From a virus: a stretch of DNA of 22,090 nt. Every line of letters starts with the position of its first letter. The first letter of the stretch is position 1. The position numbers and the translations under genes were made by a program. The stretch covers positions 1-22,090 of the IMG/VR virus record IMGVR_UViG_3300031951_001328; one strand, given 5' to 3'. A model generated the notes under the pieces. It saw only the letters and a list, made by a program, of their open reading frames with translations. It was not told the DNA's origin and searched no databases. Of this stretch, positions 4,304 to 19,673 are shown piece by piece.

Positions 4304-5962
4304 TTATGGATACACCCATTGTCCGTTGGAGAACACTATTGTTTTGCCGTCGCTATCTTTAGCTGTAGCTCCTTCGGCTGTGCCGCCAGTACGCCCAGCT
4401 TGCACCTTAGCCCTGATATCTTCAACTGTTTGACCGCCGCCTTCTGCTCCACCGCGCCTGAGTAGTAGTGCTTCAGCCATCGGCTCGGTAATTTTACCTG
4501 ACATCACCTGCGCGGCAAGTAGTTCGTCGAAGGATATACGGTCTCCCGTAGCCTTTAATTCAGCGTTAAGCCTACGCTCAGCCAAATCAACTTGCCGCTC
4601 GTCGAGGTCCAGTTTCCGTTCAAACTGCACCTGCTGCCTACCTTCTTTTTCAAGCTCGACAGCCAAACCAAACAGCTGCAGGTTTTCCTTCCGGCTCTTG
4701 TCATTTATCTGCCCCATGGCCTCAATAGCGCGGTCCTTGAGCGCCTTGCGCTCCTTCCTACTCGCACTTGCACCGGGCAGTGCAGCAGTGACTGCCTCAC
4801 CAAAAGCCTGCATCAAATCTGGTGACTTAGAAGCAGCTACACCAAAACCTATCTGTGCCAACAACATGCCGTCGTCGTAACGACGTTGTTCTTTCTCGTA
4901 CTCGTCGGACGCCATTTCTTCAGCGCGAGCCATACGTCTGGCGTTAACTTCTTGCTCTTGTTCCGTTGGACCAAACCGACGTAGCAGATTTTGGAATTGG
5001 TCTTCGACCGACCTTGCACGCCCTTCAGCAGTCCCAAAATCACGTTCGGGCGTATACGGCTTGAACTTACCGGAGGCGACTTGCGGAGCAATGCGCTTAA
5101 AGAACTCCGTGGGGTCTATACGGTTACCCTCTGCATCACGGGCACCAAAGTGCAGATGATAGCCTCCATTTTTACCGCTTACACGACCGGTGTTACCGGA
5201 CAACCCAATAACTTCACCTGTACCTACTTCCTGTCCCGGTGTGACGTTGAACTCTGATAAGTGAGAATACGACGAGCGCGTACCATCAGGGTGTTCTACA
5301 ATCACAAAGTTACCATTAATATTGTCGGTAGCCGCCTTAATGATTTTGCCCGGTGCTGGAACTCCAATCGGAGTTTTATTACCTACTCCAAAATCCATCC
5401 CTTGATGTGCACCCGTACTGCGCTGCACTCCGTACTTAGAAGTAACTGGAGACCGCATCCAATCCGTAGGGTCTACAACTTCATCACCTTGGGCAAATGC
5501 AACTATACCGCCACCTGCGTAGCCGTCGCCAAAGCCACCGTTGCTAGGCTCATCGAACATGCCGTCTGGTACGGGAACATCAGATAGACCACCGCCAGAA
5601 GCGTAAGGAGGCACCATGCCGCCCGCAGCCATCATAGGCATTTCTTGTGGCGCATCCATAGGAGGCGGAGCACCCATTTCAGGTGGTGGACCCATCGGGG
5701 GCATAGCCGCAGCTTCCGGCGTAGCGCCAAGACCAGCAGGAGGTGCGGGAGGCTCACCACCAAGAACTTGCTGCGCAACGGTTGGCTGTTGGGCAGATTC
5801 CATGACTTGGGCCGAACGCATACGGTCAATAAACATACCTGCAAGCACGGCTGCTGTAGGGTCAACGATACCCATCTGCGCAGCCTGCGCAATCTTCTGC
5901 TTATTGCCACCATACTCTTTAGCAATGTTTTCTGGTGCTTGGATGCTGAACGGCTTAGCCAA
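4304..5962 (-). CDS. Virion protein with M23 (LytM-like) peptidoglycan endopeptidase domain
   Basis: A 552-residue protein. Residues 1-60 are helical, and 70-130 are Pro/Met/Gly-rich low complexity. A glycine-rich GYAGGGIVAFAQGDE segment (148-161) precedes an M23 metallopeptidase domain at about 170-292. All expected metal and catalytic residues are visible: H186 and D190 (HQGMD), H234, and H269/H271 (HLHFG). M23 enzymes cut peptide cross-links in peptidoglycan. From about 310 to 470 the protein is charged and probably coiled coil, and the C terminus is Gly-rich. Placement among ejected proteins, fusion to structural-looking regions and lack of a signal peptide suggest a virion-borne enzyme that opens the cell wall on entry rather than the lysis enzyme. 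The start is TTG with a strong AAGGAG site; the first in-frame ATG would be residue 30. Confidence 0.85.
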   Translation of the reverse strand: MAKPFSIQAPENIAKEYGGNKQKIAQAAQMGIVDPTAAVLAGMFIDRMRSAQVMESAQQPTVAQQVLGGEPPAPPAGLGATPEAAAMPPMGPPPEMGAPPPMDAPQEMPMMAAGGMVPPYASGGGLSDVPVPDGMFDEPSNGGFGDGYAGGGIVAFAQGDEVVDPTDWMRSPVTSKYGVQRSTGAHQGMDFGVGNKTPIGVPAPGKIIKAATDNINGNFVIVEHPDGTRSSYSHLSEFNVTPGQEVGTGEVIGLSGNTGRVSGKNGGYHLHFGARDAEGNRIDPTEFFKRIAPQVASGKFKPYTPERDFGTAEGRARSVEDQFQNLLRRFGPTEQEQEVNARRMARAEEMASDEYEKEQRRYDDGMLLAQIGFGVAASKSPDLMQAFGEAVTAALPGASASRKERKALKDRAIEAMGQINDKSRKENLQLFGLAVELEKEGRQQVQFERKLDLDERQVDLAERRLNAELKATGDRISFDELLAAQVMSGKITEPMAEALLLRRGGAEGGGQTVEDIRAKVQAGRTGGTAEGATAKDSDGKTIVFSNGQWVYP

Positions 5963-7548: not shown

Positions 7549-8026
7549 GTCCGTGCTCCTCTAAATAATGCGCAATAGTATCACGCTGAAATGATAAACG
7601 AGCGTCCCGCGCATACATGGCTGCATGCATAGGGCCACCCAAAAGTGCCATAACCATTAACGCTAAATCACTACCTGAATACCGTGTAGCGTGCGAAATA
7701 TAAAGCTCTTCTTTGCACCCGTTGCGCTCCATGTCGTTGGCACCGCGCCAGTTAAGAATACCTGTGGCTATGACCGGCGCTAAAGAAGTGGCATGGGTTG
7801 TATAGAATTTGTTGTTGGGTAATCCTACCATTATATCCCACATCACTGCGTGGATAACCTCAGGGTCTATTTCTTTATCCTCATCTATAAGGTCATCGTA
7901 CAGATGTGACCACCGACATACTGTGCTCATAAAGTGCATAGCATCAGCATTTCCAAGAAATAGCTCTTCGTAACTAGCTACCTGACCATCCCATGGTGGT
8001 AGGTCTTGCTCTGTTTCGGCGGTCAT
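7541..8026 (-). CDS. Conserved phage protein with DDLID motif, function unknown
   Basis: A 161-residue, mostly helical acidic protein between two ejection-type genes. Residues 41-51 read [11 protein letters not shown], with Asp at 44, 45, 48 and 50. This D-D-x-x-D arrangement looks like a metal-binding site and superficially recalls the aspartate motif of all-helical prenyl synthases. A hydrophobic helix (about 120-135, ending [12 protein letters not shown]) follows. A second clear Asp motif, which a true prenyl synthase would need, is not visible, so no enzymatic function is assigned. I recall similar proteins in uncultured aquatic phage genomes, without a described role. The start overlaps the upstream stop as ATGA, so translation is probably coupled. 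Confidence 0.75.
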
Positions 8027-10470
8027 CCTAGCCCCTTCCTAACTTTGGTGTCTTGACCGCGCTTTGCTTTCTTACGGGCCTTATGCGCCCTATCCATCAG
8101 GGCGTATAACTTAGCAGTGCCCCTCTTGTCACTTCCTTTTCCTATACGCCTTACCGCCTCTGGTGAGAACAATACTTCGTCGCGGGCGACACGTGCTTCC
8201 TGCTTGCCACCGATACGTGCGCGTATCGAGTCACTTACTCCGTCACCGGGTCCTTGCAGGGGGCGTCCACCCATGCGAGCCAAAAGCTCCATGCCAGCAT
8301 TACTGCTGCCGTTACCAAGTTCTGATACGGTGCGAGCATCAACAACAAAAGAGCCGTCACGCATGTCTACTTCACCACCACGAGCAAGTTCCTGCATGCT
8401 GTTAGCGCCATAATCCCGAACACCGCCACCGCCACCGCCACCGCCGTACATGGTATTAAGCGACGAGTCGTATGTGCTTGTATTAGTCGTGCCTGTGTTA
8501 GCGCCGGTAGCCGGAACATATACGCCGTTAACTAGCGTATAACCCAACGAAGCCATCATATTGTCGTAATAGTTGTCTCCAGAGGTACCAGTCGAAGCCC
8601 CAGTCGAAGCCCCAGTCGAAGCCCCAGTCCCAGCGTTATACCCGCCATCGCCAGCGCCGGGTCCACGACCTCCGCCAGAACCACCGCCGCCACCGGCTCC
8701 AGCAGAACCCCCGTTCATAATGTTGAGCGCAGGGTTATACGTACCGGTTCCAGTCGTTGTGGTTCCACCAGTTGTATTTGTGTTGGTTCCAGTGCCCGTG
8801 CCAGTTGTGTTGGTTCCAGTGACCGTACCGGTTCCGGTTGCCATGTCTAAAGGATTATATCTTCCTTGAGCTGAGTTCCACACGAAGGTTTCACCGAACA
8901 CGTTGATCCTGTGGCCGTCCTGTATACCGCCAGTCCCAGTCCCAGTCCCAGTCCCAGTCCCAGTCCCAGTCCCAGTCCCAGTGCCATACCCAGTGCCATA
9001 CCCAGTGCCATACCCAGTGCCAGTCCCGCCTTGGGTGAAGGTGTATCGTTCTTCTCCGGTGTCTATACCGCCAGTCCCAGTCCCAGTCCCAGTCCCAGTC
9101 CCAGTCCCAGTAGGATTAAGCACAGGGCGGTTTGATGCTGTTATAGGTCCCGAGCTGTTCGCGCCAAAAAAGTCTACAAGTGCTTGGAAGTTATTAACAT
9201 CCGGAACTGTAGTGCGGGTAGTCGCAGTTGTATTGGCACCAGTACTGCTATTTCCGGTTGACGCAGTACCGCCTTCGGCAAACCCATATTGGGCACGCTC
9301 TTCAGGAGTTAGGTCGTCTACGCGGCGTGGTTGTGGGTTGGACGGAGTAAAAAATGTATGCTCTGCCCCGCCAGATTTGTACATATCTTCATCAGATTGG
9401 TATGACAATTCACGTACGCCGGGTACAAACTGACCTCTGTCTTCGTATTTATATTCGTCCTCATCGTATGTAGGCATGTCAGGTCGCGTTGCATCTGATA
9501 TGGAGCCTAGTACCCCAATGCCTGCTAATATAGGGGCGTTCTTAGCAAGTATCTTCGGTGCGCCAGCCAAACCTTGTTTAGTGGCCTGCCCAAATTTGTT
9601 GAAGAAGTTACCTGTGAAGTTTGCGCCGCCGCCATACGTAGCAGTAGGTGCTGCCGCTGCCGCTGGTGCCGCTACGGTTGGTGCCACTGGTGCCGCTACG
9701 GTTGGTGCCACTGGTGCCACTGGTGCCGCTGCCACTGCCTGCGCTTGTGCTAGCATGTCAGGTGAAGTCATGGCGCTATTTAGAGTCGCACCTAGAGTAC
9801 CGGCCTGCGCACCTGCACCGACAGCCTGCTCTCCAAACTTCTGTGCAAGCTGCTTTCCGAACTCTGGGCTGTTGAGAAACGCCCCGATAGCAGGATCAGC
9901 CACAGCACCAAGACCCATGTTAGAACCGAACAAACCTGCGCTGTCGCTTAGCAACCCACCAGCGTTCCCGCCGAGAATAGAGCCGCCAGCACCTACGGCA
10001 CCGGCTAGACCAGCGCCACCAAAAGCGCTGAGGCCAGCCATAAGACCTTTACTAAGGTCTCCAGTAAGTAGAGTTGAACCAGCGCCTACGATACCAGCGG
10101 CAAGGGGGGCACCAACGCCAGTAGCAGCAAGGCCGAAGCCGATAAGTGTAGGAAGTAGTTTACTTAGGATACCAGCTTCGGGTAGACCTGTCTGCGGGTT
10201 AACGGAAAGCGACCCACCATTCGCCATGGCCAAACCTTGAAGGCTGTTAACCTCGCCCGGTGTCATATGGACGAGCATCGAGTCTTCGCCGCGACCCATG
10301 TTCTGCAGTTGGCTAGCCATTGGGTTAGCGGTCGCACTTAAGCCCGCTACCGCAGGAAGACCACCAGTCGTGCCGGGGATTTGTGACCCAAGCACAGGGG
10401 GCTTACCAACAGGAGGAGCAAAACTACCTGCTGCTGTGTATGGTGGCGGGGCCATCTGTACGTCCATCAT
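8023..10470 (-). CDS. 815-residue Gly/Thr-repeat internal virion protein
   Basis: The N terminus (1-50) is Pro/Gly-rich. Residues 59-76 contain [16 protein letters not shown], similar to 'GE' motifs found in large phage structural proteins. Residues 100-230 are hydrophobic Gly/Ala-rich and could insert in a membrane. Ala/Pro/Val repeats lie near 247-269, and (Gly-Thr)n and Gly-Thr-Gly-Tyr repeats at about 453-513. Poly-Gly and GAST repeats follow to about 680. The C-terminal 130 residues are complex again, with [20 protein letters not shown] and [11 protein letters not shown] motifs and a very basic tail (about 793-815). The pattern fits an internal or ejection protein; no enzyme motif was found. 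The ATG has an AGGA site 6 bases upstream, and a second ATG directly follows and could serve instead. Confidence 0.75.
8591..8626 (-). repeat. Three tandem 12-base units encoding Gly-Ala-Ser-Thr
   Basis: The plus strand shows GTCGAAGCCCCA three times without a mismatch, followed by a partial unit. The length is a multiple of three, so copy-number change would keep the reading frame of the 815-residue protein. Confidence 0.9.
8931..9023 (-). repeat. Hexanucleotide array (CAGTCC)8 followed by 12-base Gly-Thr-Gly-Tyr units
   Basis: Positions 8931-8978 are eight perfect CAGTCC units. Variant 12-base units (CAGTGCCATACC) follow, to about 9023. On the coding strand they give alternating Thr-Gly, then Gly-Thr-Gly-Tyr. 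Unit lengths of 6 and 12 preserve the frame. Perfect identity implies recent slippage expansion. Confidence 0.92.
9072..9110 (-). repeat. Second hexanucleotide array, (CAGTCC)6
   Basis: Six perfect CAGTCC units, separated from the larger array by about 50 bases of normal-looking coding sequence ([15 protein letters not shown]). Same unit, strand and frame as the 8931 array, so the two could recombine and delete the segment between them. Confidence 0.9.
9665..9730 (-). repeat. 24-base direct repeat plus 9-base units encoding Val-Ala-Pro-Thr repeats
   Basis: GGTGCCGCTACGGTTGGTGC plus CACT (24 bases) occurs at 9665-9688 and 9689-9712, followed by shorter GGTGCCACT units. It encodes an Ala/Pro/Val linker between the hydrophobic N-terminal part and the next region of the 815-residue protein. 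Confidence 0.85.
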
Positions 10471-10534: not shown

Positions 10535-11206
10535 TCATGCAATCTCCGACATAAATTCAACCTGCACGATTGCAGACGGAGTAGCTGGGATAGCAGGTGT
10601 CACTCCTGCTGAATACGTAACTGCTGGGAAATGTTCTAGAGATACGCCTGTGCTCGTGACATGCCACATAACTTGGATATAATCGTTTGCAGCTAGCTCA
10701 ACCATGAGGGGCGTCGTAACAATTAAGTGCGATGGGTTACCGGTACTTTTGCGCGCTGAAATAGAAAACCGGCTATTAGTGTCGGGGATATCGTTTCCAT
10801 TTTTGCGCAGCCAGATATCAATGTCTTGCACGTCATTGGTCGTATTCTTGAATTGCAGGCTGTAGTTAACGGTGTACACACCCGCGTCTGGCACTGTGAG
10901 GCGAGAACCGCTGCTGAGTGTGACCCCATCTAAGAAGTCCGACACATCGTAAGTAACAGCGTAAGCAGCGTCGATTGCAGCGGCAGTCTGGTCGGTCTGG
11001 CTTTGGAACTGCCCATAAGGAAGTGTTATATGGATACCACTCCCATAGAAATAATCAGCCGTGTAGCTCTGGGCATAGTTGGGTGTGTTGGAGTCAAGCT
11101 GCGAGAAGTACGTTTCCAGTACGCGGATAACCTGCCGTATATACTGTGCATCATACTCTGAAGGAGCATTTGGTAGCGGCGCTGCTTTGAACCTAGTAAG
11201 TGCCAT
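10535..11206 (-). CDS. Virion protein with C1q/TNF-like jelly-roll domain
   Basis: A 223-residue protein when started at the ATG at 11204-11206, which overlaps the upstream stop as TAATG. A longer reading frame starting inside the upstream gene is rejected. Residues 1-65 are a probably helical attachment region (SEYDAQYIRQVIRVLETYFSQL). From about 70 to 223 the protein is beta-rich: DFLDGVTLSSGSRLTV, then VYTVNYSLQFKNT, a charged IDIWLRKNG strand, then IQVMWH. This strand order, with a 'Y-x-v-x-y-s-l-q-f' strand and a 'v-w-l-r-k-N-g' strand, is typical of C1q/TNF-like domains in phage tail and spike proteins. Likely a trimeric surface protein used in receptor contact. Assignment rests on pattern only. 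Confidence 0.75.
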   Translation of the reverse strand: MALTRFKAAPLPNAPSEYDAQYIRQVIRVLETYFSQLDSNTPNYAQSYTADYFYGSGIHITLPYGQFQSQTDQTAAAIDAAYAVTYDVSDFLDGVTLSSGSRLTVPDAGVYTVNYSLQFKNTTNDVQDIDIWLRKNGNDIPDTNSRFSISARKSTGNPSHLIVTTPLMVELAANDYIQVMWHVTSTGVSLEHFPAVTYSAGVTPAIPATPSAIVQVEFMSEIA

Positions 11207-13137
11207 TAGCGACGTCCATCCGGACGAGCGTCCAAGCGCGGTGCACCAAGCTGCCAATTAACACCAAGAGTATCTGACTGGATTTTAAGCGCCATCTGAC
11301 GTGCACGGGCACGGACAAATATCTGGTCCGTATACTGGTTTACCGACGTTTCGATTACGCGCTGGGCATCCGCAGGGTCGATAGAGACCGGAGCACCGGG
11401 GAAGTTCCGTGGGCGGATGCTGAGAGTGACTTCTGGATCAGCAGCTACAGAACCACTGAAGTTAATGTCGGGCAGTATACGCCGAGTCAGCATGAAGTTG
11501 TCACCGTCATCAAGGTCAAAGTCCGATGACTGGATGTAGCTCTCCATAGGCAGGGCGTCGTCGTTAACACCAAACTCATGGATATATAGGGTACCAGCGT
11601 TTGTGCCACCCGGAGTGTTTGTAGCCTGCGGATATTCCCGCAACGCTGTGTCTAGCCATGCAGTGCGGTCAATCGTGCCGTAGTACCAGATACGCTCAAG
11701 GTGATTATAGACAACATAGGCGTCGTTATAGTCGCTCTGCTCGGTCGGGTAGAACCACCATACCTCGTTCCAACGCTCGTTAGTACCACATACCACTTGA
11801 TCTGCTTGGTTGATGTTGAAGTTGTTGAATACGTGGTTACGCAGCGAGCATGGTAGCGTTTCGACACGACCGGTGTAGGCATAGAACTTATCCTGCCCCA
11901 TCCAGTAGGTAATGTTAGACGCGGACGCTACGGCACGGGGCGACATAATGGATATGCTGTCCGCATACTCCTGAAGCCCGAATACATCTGTAGTGCCAAG
12001 GAACTGCAGTGTGAAAAGGTGCGTGTCAGTCCATACAAGGATTTCCTGCCGAGTAGGCAGTGCCCGTACGATACGCGAGCCACGTGAAACCCGAAGGTCA
12101 CCAGCGGTGTTAGTTTGTGTTGGCGTCCAGTCACCCGGAGTATCTTGGTCAGCCCAACGGATAAGCAGGGGGTCGAAGTCTGCTATGCTCGTAGAACCAA
12201 ACGGCACTGCGCCAAAGGCAATCAAGTGGCGGTCTTGTTGTGATACCAGCAACTGCATAATCTGCGCAGGTACTGCATCTGGGTCAAACCCTTCGTTATC
12301 AGCGTAATCCGCAAGGCGGATAGCTGGTGTACCCAGTGCTGAGCCGGGGTCTTCAAGCGTGCCGCGCACCCACCAGTAGCCTTCGCCGTTACGGATATTC
12401 ATAACGAGGTCGTTGTCAAAGTTATCAAACCACCAGTCGCGCTGCGGCAAGAACACAGGAGTAATGGTACCTGTACCCCAATCACCGCGACCCCATGTGC
12501 CGACGTTCCACCCGTAGCCGCCAACTGTTATAGGGTTTCCGGGGCTAATCTGAAAAGACAGGGTTATAGCCGTGCCGCCTGCGGCGGAAACAGTTGATGT
12601 AGCAGTCGTGCTAACTGTGTAGGTGAAGATAAAGTTATCTACGCGGGTTATCTCGTAGGTGCCGTTAATTTCGGTTATAGGGATACCGCCAATGGCGGAA
12701 GGACTGCCCGAACCGGTAACACCTGCAATAATTACGTAGTCGCCGGTCTGCGCACCATGCGCAGTGGCCCCAAGGTTAACGGTAATCGTTCTAGTGGCGT
12801 TCGTCGTGTTTATGCAGTTGTCAGTGGCCGTGGTAGAAAGAACCGGCACATCATCACGTAGCGGTGTGATGTCGTAGAAGTTACCAGCAATCTCGATGTA
12901 GACTTTGACGTTAGTGCCCATAGCAAGCATGTCGTCGGAGTAAGTCGTGATCCAGTTTAGCATCTGTCGGCAGTAGCCGATGAAGTCGTTAGGAGCCGAA
13001 CGCAGCCAGCCGCCCATCTTCTCAGGATAGCCCGAGCGGAACCGTATCTTGTCGCACTCGTACCAACCGCCCTCGTTGGAGTAGTCGGTCTGGTCGCGGT
13101 TCACACCGGGCTTAAACTGGAGCTTGATGAAGGCCAT
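11206..13137 (-). CDS. Putative tail nozzle / hub protein (P22 gp10- or SU10 nozzle-like)
   Basis: A 643-residue beta-rich protein with a highly conserved-looking start (FKPGVNRDQTDYSNEGGWYE, then KIRFRSGYPEKMGGW). Several strand blocks of propeller type follow, such as DRHLIAFGAVPFGS, RIVRALPTRQEILVWTDTHL and WWFYPTEQSDYNDAYVVYNH. An inserted Thr/Gly-rich beta module lies at about 100-200 (ATAHGAQTGDYVIIAGVTG). I recognise this type from aquatic podovirus genomes, where it is normally the largest conserved tail protein. The functional name, by analogy with the P22 gp10 or SU10 nozzle, is inference. TAATG overlaps at both ends couple it to its neighbours. No catalytic motif seen. Confidence 0.7.
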   Translation of the reverse strand: MAFIKLQFKPGVNRDQTDYSNEGGWYECDKIRFRSGYPEKMGGWLRSAPNDFIGYCRQMLNWITTYSDDMLAMGTNVKVYIEIAGNFYDITPLRDDVPVLSTTATDNCINTTNATRTITVNLGATAHGAQTGDYVIIAGVTGSGSPSAIGGIPITEINGTYEITRVDNFIFTYTVSTTATSTVSAAGGTAITLSFQISPGNPITVGGYGWNVGTWGRGDWGTGTITPVFLPQRDWWFDNFDNDLVMNIRNGEGYWWVRGTLEDPGSALGTPAIRLADYADNEGFDPDAVPAQIMQLLVSQQDRHLIAFGAVPFGSTSIADFDPLLIRWADQDTPGDWTPTQTNTAGDLRVSRGSRIVRALPTRQEILVWTDTHLFTLQFLGTTDVFGLQEYADSISIMSPRAVASASNITYWMGQDKFYAYTGRVETLPCSLRNHVFNNFNINQADQVVCGTNERWNEVWWFYPTEQSDYNDAYVVYNHLERIWYYGTIDRTAWLDTALREYPQATNTPGGTNAGTLYIHEFGVNDDALPMESYIQSSDFDLDDGDNFMLTRRILPDINFSGSVAADPEVTLSIRPRNFPGAPVSIDPADAQRVIETSVNQYTDQIFVRARARQMALKIQSDTLGVNWQLGAPRLDARPDGRR

Positions 13138-13313: not shown

Positions 13314-13708
13314 ACGATTGACCTCGTAGCGCCAACAGTTGTGCCAAACACAGCGGGCGCGCCGTTAAATATCCATGTCGTCGTTGACCCATTGTTAGTG
13401 TACGAACCGTCAACGCGGTTTATTGTGGTACCCCCGACAGTCAGTGTTTCCCAACCAGAATTAGGCGCGCTTCCAATAACCGTGAAATCCAACCACGCTG
13501 GCACACCACTAACATAAACGTCTTTAAGTGTATCAATAGTCAAGCCGCTGTTTGCCCATGTCGTTGGCGTGACGCTGCCTTGGCCGCCGCTGCCCTTACC
13601 GTAGCTGGAGAAACTGCCTTGTGATAGGAACCCGACGGTTACCGTTGCTCCGCCAATGTATTCGGAGCCGCCGCCACTTCCAGCCAGTGCGCACATAATC
13701 CCGGTCAT
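13304..13708 (-). CDS. Small Gly/Ser/Thr-rich structural protein, unknown
   Basis: A 134-residue protein starting at ATG 13706-13708 (MTGIMCALAGSGGG), coupled by TAATG to the fibre gene upstream. An in-frame ATG ten codons earlier lies inside that gene and is less likely. Beta-rich with Gly/Thr-rich loops (VTVGFLSQGSFSSYGKGSGG; GTTINRVDGSYTNNGSTTTW). The composition matches the neighbouring fibre-like proteins, suggesting a tail or fibre component. No domain recognised. Confidence 0.7.
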   Translation of the reverse strand: MTGIMCALAGSGGGSEYIGGATVTVGFLSQGSFSSYGKGSGGQGSVTPTTWANSGLTIDTLKDVYVSGVPAWLDFTVIGSAPNSGWETLTVGGTTINRVDGSYTNNGSTTTWIFNGAPAVFGTTVGATRSIVWA

Positions 13709-14664
13709 TAGCTTACACCTGCACCACTGATTACCCACGTAGTAGAACCAACTTTAACGCACGTTGCTAGGCCATATTCCGCAAGCGCCGCAGTTCCCGT
13801 CAGCGTTGTACCTGCAAGGCGGAGTGTGTCTGACGTGATGGATATATTTTGGCTGGTGCCACTGTTGTTGAATATGACAACGGCTGTGCCGATAGGGAAC
13901 GCAACCGAGCTATTAGCGGGAATGACTACCCCGCCAGTCGTGATTGAGATGTGCTTACCCGCATCGGAGAGCGCCAAGGTGTAAGCCGACGTTTGGCTAT
14001 TCTGCGGTAGACCACGGAAGCCGGGAGCCGCTGCACCTATGGTGCCTGCGTCTAGCACTGTCGTAGCAGTTAGGTTTGTAAATATAGCAGCTGTGGCGTT
14101 GACGTTCGTAGCAGTAGCATTTGTAGCTAGCAGGTTTGTAACTGCTAGGTTTGTGGTAGCTAAGTTTGTGGACGTCAGGTTTGAAGTCGTTATATTTACC
14201 GAGGTTAAAGTGCCAATTATGCCGTTAATCGCAGCAATATCTACAGTACTTAACTCCGACGCATAGGAAATAGCACTAACAACATTTACGCCGTCACTGT
14301 AAACCCAAGTCGTAGTATCTGCAGGTACAGTGACGCCAGTGCCAGCCGCAGTCTTAACAAGTATGCTGTCGGCGCAGTCATTCTGGACGATGTAGGGTTT
14401 CTCAATCGAAGGGACCACAAGGTTGCGAGTTGAGCCGCCAGTAGTACCTGTGCAGCGTAGACGTAAGTTACGCGCCGTCTGAGATGCGTTGGTGTTGGTG
14501 AGCGTGAGCGTGACGTTGGCACTGGCAAAAGTAACATCAGCAGAGCCAACAATGGCTTCCTCTAGTGCGGTGCCGAGGTTGACGTTAGTGACGTCACCCC
14601 ATGAGGTGTTGTTCTCACCCGTTGCCATTAGCTGAATTTTAAGGTTGCTGTATGTACTTGGCAT
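13708..14664 (-). CDS. Tail-fibre-like protein with pentapeptide-type repeats
   Basis: A 318-residue protein. Residues 1-140 form an attachment-type domain (MPSTYSNLKIQLMATGENNT, then SWGDVTNVNLGTALEEAIVG) of the sort seen at the start of phage fibre proteins. Residues about 154-200 are five-residue repeats of the xTNLx type, which may form a short right-handed beta helix. From about 226 a C-terminal domain (YTLALSDAGK, ASVAFPIGT) is clearly homologous to a module in the two glycine-rich fibre genes. Likely a trimeric fibre or neck protein. Start ATG with AAGGA six bases upstream; stop coupled to the next gene. Confidence 0.8.
   Translation of the reverse strand: MPSTYSNLKIQLMATGENNTSWGDVTNVNLGTALEEAIVGSADVTFASANVTLTLTNTNASQTARNLRLRCTGTTGGSTRNLVVPSIEKPYIVQNDCADSILVKTAAGTGVTVPADTTTWVYSDGVNVVSAISYASELSTVDIAAINGIIGTLTSVNITTSNLTSTNLATTNLAVTNLLATNATATNVNATAAIFTNLTATTVLDAGTIGAAAPGFRGLPQNSQTSAYTLALSDAGKHISITTGGVVIPANSSVAFPIGTAVVIFNNSGTSQNISITSDTLRLAGTTLTGTAALAEYGLATCVKVGSTTWVISGAGVS
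14065..14205 (-). repeat. 15-base repeats encoding xTNLx pentapeptides
   Basis: About nine imperfect 15-base units centred on a TTTGT core on the plus strand (GTNAGGTTTGTNNNN pattern) encode TSNLT, STNLA, TTNLA, VTNLL and similar. In-frame unit loss or gain would change fibre length. Confidence 0.8.
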
Positions 14665-15608: not shown

Positions 15609-16091
15609 TTATGCTTCGTTTGCGGAGACTTTTCCGCCCTTCATAAAAACATACTTGCCAAGCACCGGTTCATCTTTAGGCCAGCGACATGCGACAAGAC
15701 GGCTTTTACCAAGCTTCATTATGTTTACAGCATTACCTTGGTTACCGCCAAGCACATAATAATGCCCCGTGTCTTCACCTACATAGAAGCCAACATGCCC
15801 GCCACCTGCACGGTCAAAGACAAGAATAGCTCCGGGAGCTACGCGGTCACGACGTAGTAGCGAGCCGTAGTCCGACCAAGCCTTAGCGCGCATGTAATAC
15901 TTAGGGTAAGGCAGACCGGCTTCAGCCATGCAGTGTGCCACAAACACGCCACACCAAGGGGTCTCATCGTCCCGCCACCAAGCACGTAGTTTAGAAAGCC
16001 AGCCTTGAATAACTTTGCTGTGCGCAGGACCGGGGATTTCCTTGGTACCTACGAGTTTCTCAGCAATGACGAGCCACCGAGGGTCAGACAT
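15609..16091 (-). CDS. TIGR02594-family NlpC/P60- or CHAP-like cell-wall hydrolase (endolysin)
   Basis: A 160-residue protein that is essentially one catalytic domain. C47 sits in TPWCGVFVAHCM and H99 in GGGHVGFYVGED. GGNQGNAVN (115-123) probably carries the third polar residue. This is the Cys/His arrangement of the TIGR02594 family within the papain-like NlpC/P60/CHAP group, which cut peptide or amide bonds in peptidoglycan. There is no signal peptide, so it needs the adjacent holin. The start is the ATG at 16089-16091, with GGAGAA 8 bases upstream overlapping the end of the previous gene. A longer reading frame starting 39 bases earlier lacks such a site. Confidence 0.88.
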   Translation of the reverse strand: MSDPRWLVIAEKLVGTKEIPGPAHSKVIQGWLSKLRAWWRDDETPWCGVFVAHCMAEAGLPYPKYYMRAKAWSDYGSLLRRDRVAPGAILVFDRAGGGHVGFYVGEDTGHYYVLGGNQGNAVNIMKLGKSRLVACRWPKDEPVLGKYVFMKGGKVSANEA

Positions 16092-16093
16092 AA

Positions 16094-16456
16094 TTAAGCT
16101 TCTCCGGTTGGTAACGTAACCTCTACCCAAGCCAATGTGGCTTCATCCCAATAGTAAGGCTTGCCGTCGTCTGGGTATGCTGTTGGTGCGTCCCACAGGC
16201 AGGTGTCTTCGTTCAGCGTCCATGATGGGAAAGGTTGCGGCGCATAAAACGCATCGCGCTCTGCATCGTAGGTAAACCCGATGCCAGCATAGTTTTTGCG
16301 TAGCGGACGGCCTTCGGGGTGCTGACCGCCATAGGTGTTATACGAGGTCTGCACCCAAAGCGAGGGATCGCCAAATAGGCCCGTGTCGATAACGTCCTGT
16401 TCGATGACCAGAACCTCTGTGACGATGCCGTTTTCTATTTTTGCAAAATGCGCCAT
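16094..16456 (-). CDS. Conserved 120-residue phage protein near fibres, unknown
   Basis: Begins MAHFAKIENGIVTEVLVIEQ and carries WVQTSYNTYGGQHPEGRPLR, NYAGIGFTYDAERDAF and repeated Trp/Pro motifs near the end (PSWTLNEDTCLWDAPTAYPD, YYWDEATLAWVE). I recognise this pattern from cyanophage and other aquatic phage genomes, where it is a short structural or fibre-associated protein without an established function. Its place directly after two fibre genes is consistent with a fibre accessory or assembly role, but that is inference. AGGA lies 6 bases before the ATG. Confidence 0.75.
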   Translation of the reverse strand: MAHFAKIENGIVTEVLVIEQDVIDTGLFGDPSLWVQTSYNTYGGQHPEGRPLRKNYAGIGFTYDAERDAFYAPQPFPSWTLNEDTCLWDAPTAYPDDGKPYYWDEATLAWVEVTLPTGEA

Positions 16457-16464
16457 GATAAATC

Positions 16465-17697
16465 CTATGCGAACGTAATTGTGCCAGATGAGTTGAATTG
16501 GTAAATTGTGTTACCACCGGATGTTGTGATTGTCGGTGAGCCTGTAGTTGAGGTCGCTGGGACAATAGATGAAATGATAACAACACCAGAGCCGCCAGCA
16601 GCATTACTACCAAATGCAGCTTTACCACCACCGCCACCGCCAGTATTGGCTGTTCCAGCAACTGGCGCTACTGATGTTCCGCCTCCAGCACCGCCTCCGC
16701 CTGTTCCGCCAGCGGGGCCGCTTGCCGCAAAAATACTACCGCCGCCACCGCCGCCAGCGCGAGTTATTGATGTTCCTGTGATTGACGAAGCTAAACCATT
16801 ACCGCCACGAGTAGGCACGGTTGATGGCCCATCAGGTCCAGCTTCACTAGCCCCACCGCCTCCAGCACACGCAAAACTGTCAGCATTGTTACCGCCTTTG
16901 AAGCCTTGCCCAGCAGTTCCTGCTCCTCCGGTAGTTGGTCCATAACCACCAGCGCCACCGCCAGACCCTCCAGAAACTCCGTTGGCCTCTGTACCACGGC
17001 CACCACCAACGGCGGTTGTACGCCCAGTAACTGAAGAGTTACCACCATTACTTCCGGCGCTACCCCCAGCACCGACAGATACGGTCAGTGTGCCTGTGGA
17101 ATATGTTACGGTTTCACTAACGTATCCGCCAGCACCGCCGCCGCCCGTATAGTTGGTGCTGGCGTTTCCGCCACTACCGCCGCCAGCAATAATTAAGTAA
17201 GAGACTGTGGGGGTGGACACCGTTCCAACTGTGCTATTCCATTCGTTTGTACCTGTCTTAAATAATTGCAAAGTTGTGTTTACGGCAAGAATTGATGGGT
17301 TAGAAATAGCCCCTACGCCGTTTTGTATTACAGATATGCCAGTTGTAGATAAAACGATGGAATTAGTTCCCCTATTCACAATCGTAATGAGTGTTCCTAT
17401 AGGAAAAGCCACCGACGCATTGGTCGGGATTGTGATTGTCTGAGCGCTAGTGTTAGCAGAATATATCTGCTTGCCCGCATCGCCGAGAACCAACGTGTAG
17501 TCGCCAGACTGGATATTCTGCGGGTATGCAACTGGGCTTGCTGGTATCGCGCTGGATACCCATACTGACCCATCGCTCGTAAGAACGTTAGCCGAAGTGC
17601 CCGGAGAGGTTAAACCTGTACCACCGCTGCCCGCAGGTAGTGTGCCTGAAGCTGTCGATACGTTTACCGGAGGAAGGATGCTTGAGAGGGTTGTCAT
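16465..17697 (-). CDS. Glycine-rich tail fibre / adhesin, copy B
   Basis: A 410-residue protein. Residues 1-56 include GGTGLTSPGTSANVLTSDG, a linker motif common in tail fibres. A neck module follows (58-160: YPQNIQSGDYTLVLGDAGKQ, ASVAFPIGT). A glycine-rich domain (about 170-370, with runs such as AGGGGGG) comes next, and a closing beta segment (GSGVVIIS, TTGSPTITTSGGNTIYQFNS). Glycine-rich regions of this kind form polyglycine-II bundles in known phage adhesins such as S16 gp38, which supports a receptor-binding tip role. It lacks the capsid-proximal N-terminal domain of copy A, so it may join copy A in a mixed assembly. It overlaps the upstream gene by ATGA and has only a weak ribosome site. 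Confidence 0.82.
   Translation of the reverse strand: MTTLSSILPPVNVSTASGTLPAGSGGTGLTSPGTSANVLTSDGSVWVSSAIPASPVAYPQNIQSGDYTLVLGDAGKQIYSANTSAQTITIPTNASVAFPIGTLITIVNRGTNSIVLSTTGISVIQNGVGAISNPSILAVNTTLQLFKTGTNEWNSTVGTVSTPTVSYLIIAGGGSGGNASTNYTGGGGAGGYVSETVTYSTGTLTVSVGAGGSAGSNGGNSSVTGRTTAVGGGRGTEANGVSGGSGGGAGGYGPTTGGAGTAGQGFKGGNNADSFACAGGGGASEAGPDGPSTVPTRGGNGLASSITGTSITRAGGGGGGSIFAASGPAGGTGGGGAGGGTSVAPVAGTANTGGGGGGKAAFGSNAAGGSGVVIISSIVPATSTTGSPTITTSGGNTIYQFNSSGTITFA
17383..17526 (-). repeat. Neck module, copy in glycine-rich fibre B
   Basis: Encodes residues 58-105 of copy B. It matches 18687-18830 at 44 of 48 amino acids by direct count, with extended nucleotide similarity. Confidence 0.9.
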
Positions 17698-19673
17698 GCC
17701 GTGTAGCTTCCCGATGAATTAAATTGAAGAATTGTATTGGAGCCACTGGTTGTAACCGTCGGTGAGCCAGTTGTCGTGCCGGTGTAGTCGGCTGTAGGGA
17801 TTGAGAGGATAACAACACCCGAGCCACCAGCGCCACCTGTGCGGACTGTACCTCCGCCACCCGTGCCAGCACCGCCGCCGCCACCGCCGCGATTTGCTGT
17901 ACCCGCAGAGCCGTTAGCCGCTGCACCACCATTACCACCGCCTCCAGCGCCGCCCGTACCAGCAGTACCAGCTAATCGTTTACCACCACCGCCGCCTCCG
18001 GCGTAAGTTACCGAGGAGCCAGTAATTGAGCTTGCTGTACCTGCGCCGCCATTACCGCCAGAAGTACCCGAAGCAGCCGCACCAACAGCAGAAGCGCCGC
18101 CGCCGCCGCCGCCAACTTGGGCTTCAGCATCGGAGGTGCTATTTTGTCCGGCACCGCCATTATTACCTTGTCCGCTAGTTCCAGCGCCACCAGATGTGGT
18201 TCCTGAAGCGAACGAGCCAGAGCCGCCGCCGCCCGACCCACCTGCAACACCTGCACCAGTACTTACACCGCTGCCGCCACCGCCACCACTGGCCGTTAAA
18301 CTTAATGCCGAAGAGTTGCTACCGGTGTTTCCGTTACCGTTGCTGGATTGCACAGCAGCACCAGCGCCAACCGTGATTGTGTAGGTGGTTCCAAATGTTA
18401 AAGTAGAAGTGCCGGTCAGCAATCCACCAGCGCCGCCGCCACCAGTCCCCATGTTGGTGTCGTTTGAGCCACCTGAACCGCCACCAGCGGCAATGAGATA
18501 AGAGGCGATAGTGGATGTTGTTAACGTACCTGTGAGTATGTTCCACGCGTTTGTACCAGTCTTTACCAACTGTACGGGTACACCAGAGGCTATCTTAGGG
18601 CTTGTTACGGCTGTCGTGCTCCCAATTTGATAAACCGAAACACCAGATACGCTTAGGGTAATTGTGCTTGTACCCATGTTGAACAGAGTAATTATGGTTC
18701 CGATAGGGAACGCCACCGACGCATTGGTTGGTATCGTGATGGTTTGGGCGCCAGTGTTGGCAGAATATATCTGTTTACCGGCATCGCCAAGAACTAACGT
18801 ATAGTTGCTGCTTTGTATGTTTTGCGGGTATGCTGCTATCGGTGCAGCAGACGTCCAGCCAGTGCCGTCACTGGTCAAAACGTTTCCGGCAGTACCTGAG
18901 GAAGTTAGCCCCGTACCACCGCCCGATGCCGAAACAACACCTGCACCTGCTCCGCCGACCTGCGCGTACACATCCCAAGTCGTACCGCTGTAAACCAACT
19001 GAACGCTGACACCGGAGATGTTGCAGATGAGGTCTGAAGCTGAGCCGTTGATGGTCGAGCCGTTACGTCCGACTGTGAGGTTATTTGTAGCCCACGACCC
19101 TGCACTATCGACAACAAAAACTTGGTCACCGACAGATGGAGTAGCTGGAAGCGTAACCGTGAAGGCTCCGCCGCTAGTATCAGTCTGTACGCCATCGTTT
19201 GCGGCGGCAGTAAAGTTCGCGGTCTTGACCGTAGTATACGCTATGCCTCCGCCGGAGGGAATCTGCGACACCCATTCCGTGCCGTCGCTGGTTAGGACAT
19301 TACCCGCCGTACCGGGGCTGGAGAGACCGGTGCCGCCATTAGCAGGTGGTAGGAGGCCGAAGCCGTCCGAGATAGACTTGCTGGCTGGGTAGTCGCAGAA
19401 CACATCTTTAGTGCCTGCGGAGAAGTTAACGAGTGAGCCGCTATTGCTGGACGCAAGCACAGTGTCACGCGAAAGCGTAGGGCCAGCACCTGAGTAAGTC
19501 CCAATACCGACTTCCCACTGTGCACCAGCATTAATGGTGTAGTATGTGGTGTTACCGTTGCCGACCGCACTAAAGGTCTGGTACCCCGTAGGTGAGGTAC
19601 CACTGAGCGTTATCGTACCTGTACCAGTGGTAGTGGTAGTATCGCGTACGCGGTCAGCAACATTTAAAGGCAT
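17694..19673 (-). CDS. Glycine-rich tail fibre / adhesin, copy A
   Basis: A 659-residue protein. Residues 1-105 form a typical fibre-attachment domain ([20 protein letters not shown] ... WEVGIGTYSG, LSRDTVLASSNSG, FCDYPASKS). Two linker repeats GGTGLxSxGTAGNVLTSDG occur at about 113 and 252. A beta module with VGDQVFVVDSAGSW lies between them. The neck module (282-380) and a glycine-rich domain (about 396-625) follow, and the closing segment (GSGVVILS, TTGSPTVTTSGSNTILQFNS) is shared with copy B. Probably the main receptor-binding fibre, with the glycine-rich part as polyglycine-II tip. AAGGA lies 6 bases before the ATG. Confidence 0.85.
   Translation of the reverse strand: MPLNVADRVRDTTTTTGTGTITLSGTSPTGYQTFSAVGNGNTTYYTINAGAQWEVGIGTYSGAGPTLSRDTVLASSNSGSLVNFSAGTKDVFCDYPASKSISDGFGLLPPANGGTGLSSPGTAGNVLTSDGTEWVSQIPSGGGIAYTTVKTANFTAAANDGVQTDTSGGAFTVTLPATPSVGDQVFVVDSAGSWATNNLTVGRNGSTINGSASDLICNISGVSVQLVYSGTTWDVYAQVGGAGAGVVSASGGGTGLTSSGTAGNVLTSDGTGWTSAAPIAAYPQNIQSSNYTLVLGDAGKQIYSANTGAQTITIPTNASVAFPIGTIITLFNMGTSTITLSVSGVSVYQIGSTTAVTSPKIASGVPVQLVKTGTNAWNILTGTLTTSTIASYLIAAGGGSGGSNDTNMGTGGGGAGGLLTGTSTLTFGTTYTITVGAGAAVQSSNGNGNTGSNSSALSLTASGGGGGSGVSTGAGVAGGSGGGGSGSFASGTTSGGAGTSGQGNNGGAGQNSTSDAEAQVGGGGGGASAVGAAASGTSGGNGGAGTASSITGSSVTYAGGGGGGKRLAGTAGTGGAGGGGNGGAAANGSAGTANRGGGGGGAGTGGGGTVRTGGAGGSGVVILSIPTADYTGTTTGSPTVTTSGSNTILQFNSSGSYTA
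18687..18830 (-). repeat. Neck module, copy in glycine-rich fibre A
   Basis: Encodes residues 282-329 of copy A; partner of 17383-17526. The similarity extends on both sides through the GGTGLxS linker and into the following beta region, indicating tandem gene duplication. Confidence 0.9.

Follow-up and report, generated by a model that had tools for sequence, protein, structure and literature searches.

In gp38 of phages T2, S16 and PP01, glycine motifs alternate with variable loops that set host specificity (PMC12892980), and in the Pam3 fibre gp24, encoded together with the small chaperone gp25, receptor binding has been proposed for the variable loops at the distal end of a glycine-rich stem (PMC9608196, PDB 7YPX). 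CBA120 encodes several receptor-binding proteins together, the branched tailspikes TSP1-4, and the tailspike authors describe the XD1 domain of tailspike 4 as a spacer between docking modules (PMC8825819). In the Alteromonas A5/V22 module, a host-recognition fibre and a small chaperone move between unrelated phages (PMC10579305), and in SU10 the long tail fibres are carried by the adaptor (PMC9509320). A further group, the "Glycine-rich domain-containing proteins" of uncultured phages (phrog_2295/PF21722), belongs to families that carry no function. Swapping of adhesin tips often changes phage host range, but the borders of natural exchanges are rarely resolved to single bases.

We analysed a stretch of 22,090 bases (the window), which is one entire virus record. 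Its minus strand carries a structural module in the order SU10-type adaptor (PF24175, E 4.5e-25), 94-aa gene, 156-aa gene (phrog_644), A, B and p120, followed by an NlpC/P60-like gene (a match below the Pfam cut-off), a 234-aa gene, a 318-aa gene and a 643-aa virion protein (phrog_3287). The locus of A and B (Table 1) is probably a two-adhesin host-recognition cassette of an uncultured tailed phage, in which one tip would be kept constant and the other exchanged. The adaptor in the same module fits a role of A as a fibre, by analogy with SU10.

Table 1 Features of the putative two-adhesin locus and its surroundings, in window positions
Feature	Position	Strand	Detail
Gene A, 659 aa	17694..19673	-	anchored fibre/adhesin with conserved-type tip (putative)
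A N-terminal domain, aa 1-105	19359..19673	-	presumed virion attachment domain; in A only, not in B
A linker copy 1, GGTGLSSPGTAGNVLTSDGTEW	19263..19355	-	from sequence
A middle domain, aa 141-241, XD1-like	18951..19253	-	phrog_31104, E 2e-21
A linker copy 2	18840..18935	-	from sequence
A neck, aa 282-329	18687..18830	-	44/48 residues identical to B neck
A glycine-rich tip, aa 387-624	17802..18515	-	PF21722, E 5.5e-20
A closing segment	17697..17801	-	ends SYTA*; start codon of the following gene lies within GCATGA
ATGA stop/start overlap of A and B, 4 nt	17694..17697	-	same -4 in every dyad
Gene B, 410 aa	16465..17697	-	second adhesin with exchangeable tip (putative)
B head (MTTLSSILPPV...) and linker, aa 1-57	17527..17697	-	
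B neck, aa 58-105	17383..17526	-	144 nt
Recombination breakpoint versus L005/L006	17388..17389	.	B codon 103, last codons of the neck
B glycine-rich tip, aa 161-376	16570..17217	-	variable among dyads; PF21722, E 1.4e-18
B closing segment	16468..16569	-	ends TITFA*, terminal type; next gene at +8
p120, phrog_7759	16094..16456	-	candidate tip chaperone/assembly factor
Third, diverged neck domain, in the 318-aa gene	13711..14013	-	

Both A and B are members of phrog_2295 and of Pfam PF21722 (Gly_rich_2), scoring 72.8 and 68.2 bits, respectively, against a curated cut-off of 24.3. In an alignment of the tips, consensus glycines are kept in 82% of rows, compared to 53% for other columns, a pattern that resembles the constant and variable parts of gp38 (PMC12892980) and Pam3 gp24 (PMC9608196). 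As in gp38, constant glycine motifs alternate with variable segments, but the tip in this locus occurs in two copies, each joined to a neck domain. Membership of the gp38 family was considered and rejected, as no sequence relation was detected: Pfam gives PF21722 only and a PDB profile search returned no gp38 chain. The tips share GGGGxGG motifs with Pam3 gp24, and the models of B and p120 both find their gp24/gp25 counterparts among the top PDB matches; the similarity is nevertheless weak (B versus gp24, Foldseek prob 0.33), and Pam3 has one fibre gene. The predicted structure of B is confident (pLDDT 81.5, about 90 in the tip). Its Foldseek matches in the PDB also include CBA120 TSP4 and, weakly, the Bxb1 tail tip and the LTK/ALK glycine-rich domains, and 233 BFVD matches at E ≤0.001 are mostly named "Glycine-rich domain-containing proteins". 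A possible polyglycine-II packing of the tip was addressed with this confident model, whose matches to Pam3 gp24 and the LTK/ALK domains are weak. None of the papers searched names PF21722, and those found do not describe the gene pair or its tip exchange.

Gene A resembles the CBA120 tailspikes in its XD1-like domain. Residues 134-262 match PDB entry 7rfv (CBA120 TSP4-N) with a phmmer E value of 2e-7, by sequence only, and 7rej at E 5.5e-4. When the docking domains XD2 and XD3 were sought, the sequence matches of 7rej and 7rfo to A stopped at about residue 204 of 335. Unlike in the CBA120 tailspikes, no XD2/XD3 match was seen in the sequence of A, and there are no tailspike enzyme domains. 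The N-terminus of A is 64-73% identical in many other phage contigs, 94-97% identical in L005, L060 and L070, and 100% identical in L052. The neck has no sequence match among solved domains, and hhalign of the neck against the XD1-like domain gave a low probability of 6.7%, from shallow profiles, so that a fold shared by the two is a conjecture. All relatives compared (L-numbers) are metagenomic contigs.

Residues 244-658 of A align with residues 17-408 of B at 55% identity (BLASTP E 4e-135), and of residues 1-241 of A only the linker repeat recurs in B. Alignment and Pfam thereby confirm an earlier note on this DNA, which described a linker, a neck with 44/48 identical residues, a glycine-rich tip and a closing segment shared by both genes, and an attachment domain in A only; the third neck domain in the 318-aa gene, the second linker copy of A and its XD1-like domain are additional to that note. 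The break between the genes is real: across the A-B junction, 7,519 nt of the window recur at 99.95% identity in L004, a contig assembled from a different metagenome. This match and the repeated ATGA dyads led us to reject a sequencing or assembly break; single-gene relatives do exist (L070, L132 and L137), yet the split here is no error. The tips of A and B differ, so the possibility of identical tips, also raised in that note, does not apply.

The same note read the pair as a recent local duplication followed by divergence of the tips, and this reading fared less well. The two genes are indeed adjacent paralogues with the same module order and necks that are 91% identical, but the comparison of neck and tip divergence that the note called for does not support recency: synonymous sites are saturated in every module (pS 0.67 in both neck and tip and 0.90 in the part after the neck), and dN rises from 0.06 for the neck to 0.47 for the tip. 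With pS saturated and dN this low, the likeness of the necks reflects protein constraint rather than recency or gene conversion; recent gene conversion of the neck was rejected on the same saturation. Nor is the identity between A and B tips higher within than between genomes (0.534 in the same genome, n=9 pairs; 0.535 in different genomes, n=90 pairs; 61 tips), and the same dyad occurs in many other contigs. A recent tandem duplication in this lineage, with two tips now drifting apart, is accordingly most improbable. The closest tip to that of B in the window belongs to another phage (L018, 68%), and in the tip tree eight dyad A tips and two single-gene tips form one group with support 97/99. 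Judged by their sequences, the A and B types are ancient paralogues whose split is older than these phages. Their homology certainly goes back, on the same alignments, to an old duplication or to the capture of a related gene; these two origins are indistinguishable.

Ten related contigs (the window, L005, L007, L010, L014, L123, L124, L125, L128 and L129) share the arrangement of a tip gene and then, at exactly -4, a gene with neck and tip. The N-terminus of A is completely different among several of them, and the B head is conserved in L005, L007, L014 and L123. In the dyads p120 comes after B at +8 or +9, except in L123-L125, where a third tip-bearing unit precedes p120. Other arrangements also occur. 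L070 has a single fused gene without the XD1-like domain, in which linker copy 1 is joined straight to the neck; the absence of B from the single-gene relatives implies that B is not always needed. In L052, L060 and L127 tips are mounted on other short heads, and L005 has a split shaft and a double tip. One gene of L005 (3016-4692) has two complete glycine-rich tips in tandem, and one gene of L027 (6243-8912) carries three.

In eight dyads the A tips are 0.81-0.99 identical and the B tips 0.48-0.92, with the A tips at least as alike as the B tips in 28/28 pairs, although these dyads are related contigs and not independent lineages. The A tip of the window is 99% identical to that of L014. The constancy of A has exceptions, as L005 and L007 carry different tips at the A position. 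Tip variants, which the earlier note proposed to seek in relatives, are found, and B tips vary more than A tips. Between L128 and L129, nucleotide identity is 83-100% in the A tip and in the B head and linker, mostly 35-60% in the B tip, and back to 90-95% in p120. Aligned with L005, the window differs at 67 positions within the opening 309 nt of B and then at none for 1,419 nt (window 15970-17388), a stretch that takes in the B tip and p120 and reaches the NlpC gene; on these sequences this exchange is very recent. L006, a contig from a second metagenome, shows the junction of L005 as well (99.45% identity over 10.2 kb). Maximum-likelihood change points lie 116-171 nt after the start of the neck in 7/9 comparisons and at 209-210 nt in the other 2/9, in comparisons that share genomes and are not independent events. 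The tip swapping suggested in the earlier note is thus supported as exchange between phages, with its border at the neck end; we saw no exchange between A and B of one genome. The cut points are placed at the end of a conserved neck, and one swap is recent enough to be free of later mutations.

The far greater exchange of B tips than of A tips, together with the solo relatives that do without B, could also mean that B serves as a spare tip module, a decoy copy or a reservoir for exchange, which is rarely built into virions and is kept to let tips move. We consider this very unlikely, because complete B reading frames are intact, with a conserved head and neck and tight coupling to A, and because none of the dyads had an A-type tip in its B position.

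The closing segments of the tips follow a junction rule. The gene after a tip ending in SYTA* or TYTA*, be it a tip gene, p120 or another, overlaps by exactly 4 nt in 21/21 cases where a next gene is assigned; this constancy implies that GCATGA in the SYTA cassette holds the start codon for the gene that follows. Tips ending in ITF* and its variants have the next gene at +4 to +10, and two outlying ITW endings overlap the next gene instead. In the dyads A belongs to the SYTA*/TYTA* closing class and B to the ITF* class. Such class-specific junctions would let tips interchange without breaking translation. A more elaborate division of labour between the two adhesins, with a conserved tip on A, a hot-swappable B, cassettes running from neck end to closing segment and class-specific coupling signals (ATGA or spaced start), remains a tentative proposal; if its coupling signals are as described, tips would plug in and the operon would still translate.

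For the two-adhesin cassette, we envisage A as the virion-anchored fibre, built of the attachment domain, a linker, the XD1-like domain, a second linker, the neck and a conserved-type glycine-rich tip. B would be a second adhesin, coupled to A by stop-start overlap and bringing its own linker, neck and fast-exchanging glycine-rich tip; lacking an attachment domain, it probably joins the virion via A or another fibre part. Both tips would bind receptors, and the constant/variable split could correspond to two receptors or two adsorption steps, so that the phage may keep one grip on host cells while changing the other. Dual receptor use or a hetero-oligomeric fibre, as the earlier note suggested, would be plausible. 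The missing attachment domain, the strict order and the stop-start coupling could instead indicate that B sits at the distal end of the same fibre, capping or extending A, as gp38 does gp37, with the tips forming one composite binding head. The separation of the A shaft from its tip gene in L005 and L007 points the same way. B nevertheless repeats the neck and a full tip, unlike gp38, and has no sequence match to solved gp38 chains, and we regard this composite fibre as unlikely, though less so than a spare tip. As a two-adhesin cassette, the locus would allow receptor recognition by one constant and one variable tip to be tested in aquatic phages; it would also name a candidate chaperone and suggest hypothetical functions for PF21722, phrog_2295 and phrog_7759, families without any so far.

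That candidate is p120, which directly follows 35/55 tip genes with an assigned next gene; another tip gene follows 13 more. The top Foldseek match of its model is 7ypx_a (Pam3 gp25), a weak one (prob 0.80, E 0.13, TM 0.31), and unlike gp25 the model has no C-terminal helical trimerisation domain, only one short helix. By sequence p120 joins no family of known chaperones such as Tfa: it had no Pfam match at E 0.1 and no PDB match. The A5/V22 system is alike in pairing a host-recognition fibre with a small chaperone, but its chaperones have 195-240 aa with an alpha-helical body and beta-hairpins, and it has one fibre gene. Among loci spanning the adaptor to the 643-aa gene, p120 and tips co-occur in 3/3 versus 0/5 (Fisher p 0.018), a weak test on few loci, which include the near-duplicates L005 and L006 and of which the tip-bearing ones were mostly found with tip queries. 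The weak gp24 and gp25 matches together with the 35/55 adjacency make a chaperone role the best guess, and p120 probably chaperones the tips. The gene immediately preceding a tip gene in L036 (4899-5312) combines a p120-like C-terminal half with another N-terminal half, which indicates that p120 is itself modular.

A tblastn search for isolated phages with the same tips gave neck-level matches only, in Gordonia phages and a small number of others; the masking of low-complexity glycine runs by BLAST is part of the reason. A DNA search gave two short matches, DSL-LC04 and HTVC023P, and a genome scan for the host found only weak neck or glycine-tip matches in unrelated genomes.

Several other genes deserve mention. 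In several relatives, L052, L066 and L077, an unrelated gene set replaces the NlpC-like region after p120, a second variable island adjoining the tips. The 318-aa gene (13708-14664) ends in the third neck-type domain, without a glycine tip, and the L005 shaft gene (444 aa) has the same ending. A 240-aa protein (10535-11257) has weak C-terminal matches to BclA_C (E 0.002) and TNF (E 0.01) and is possibly another trimeric virion tip. An 815-aa protein (8023-10470) contains long Thr-Gly dipeptide repeats, encoded by a microsatellite-like stretch. Two further proteins, one of 1,423 aa with LPD38 (PF18857; 29-4300) and one of 552 aa with an M23 peptidase (4304-5962), are candidate ejection or cell-wall proteins.
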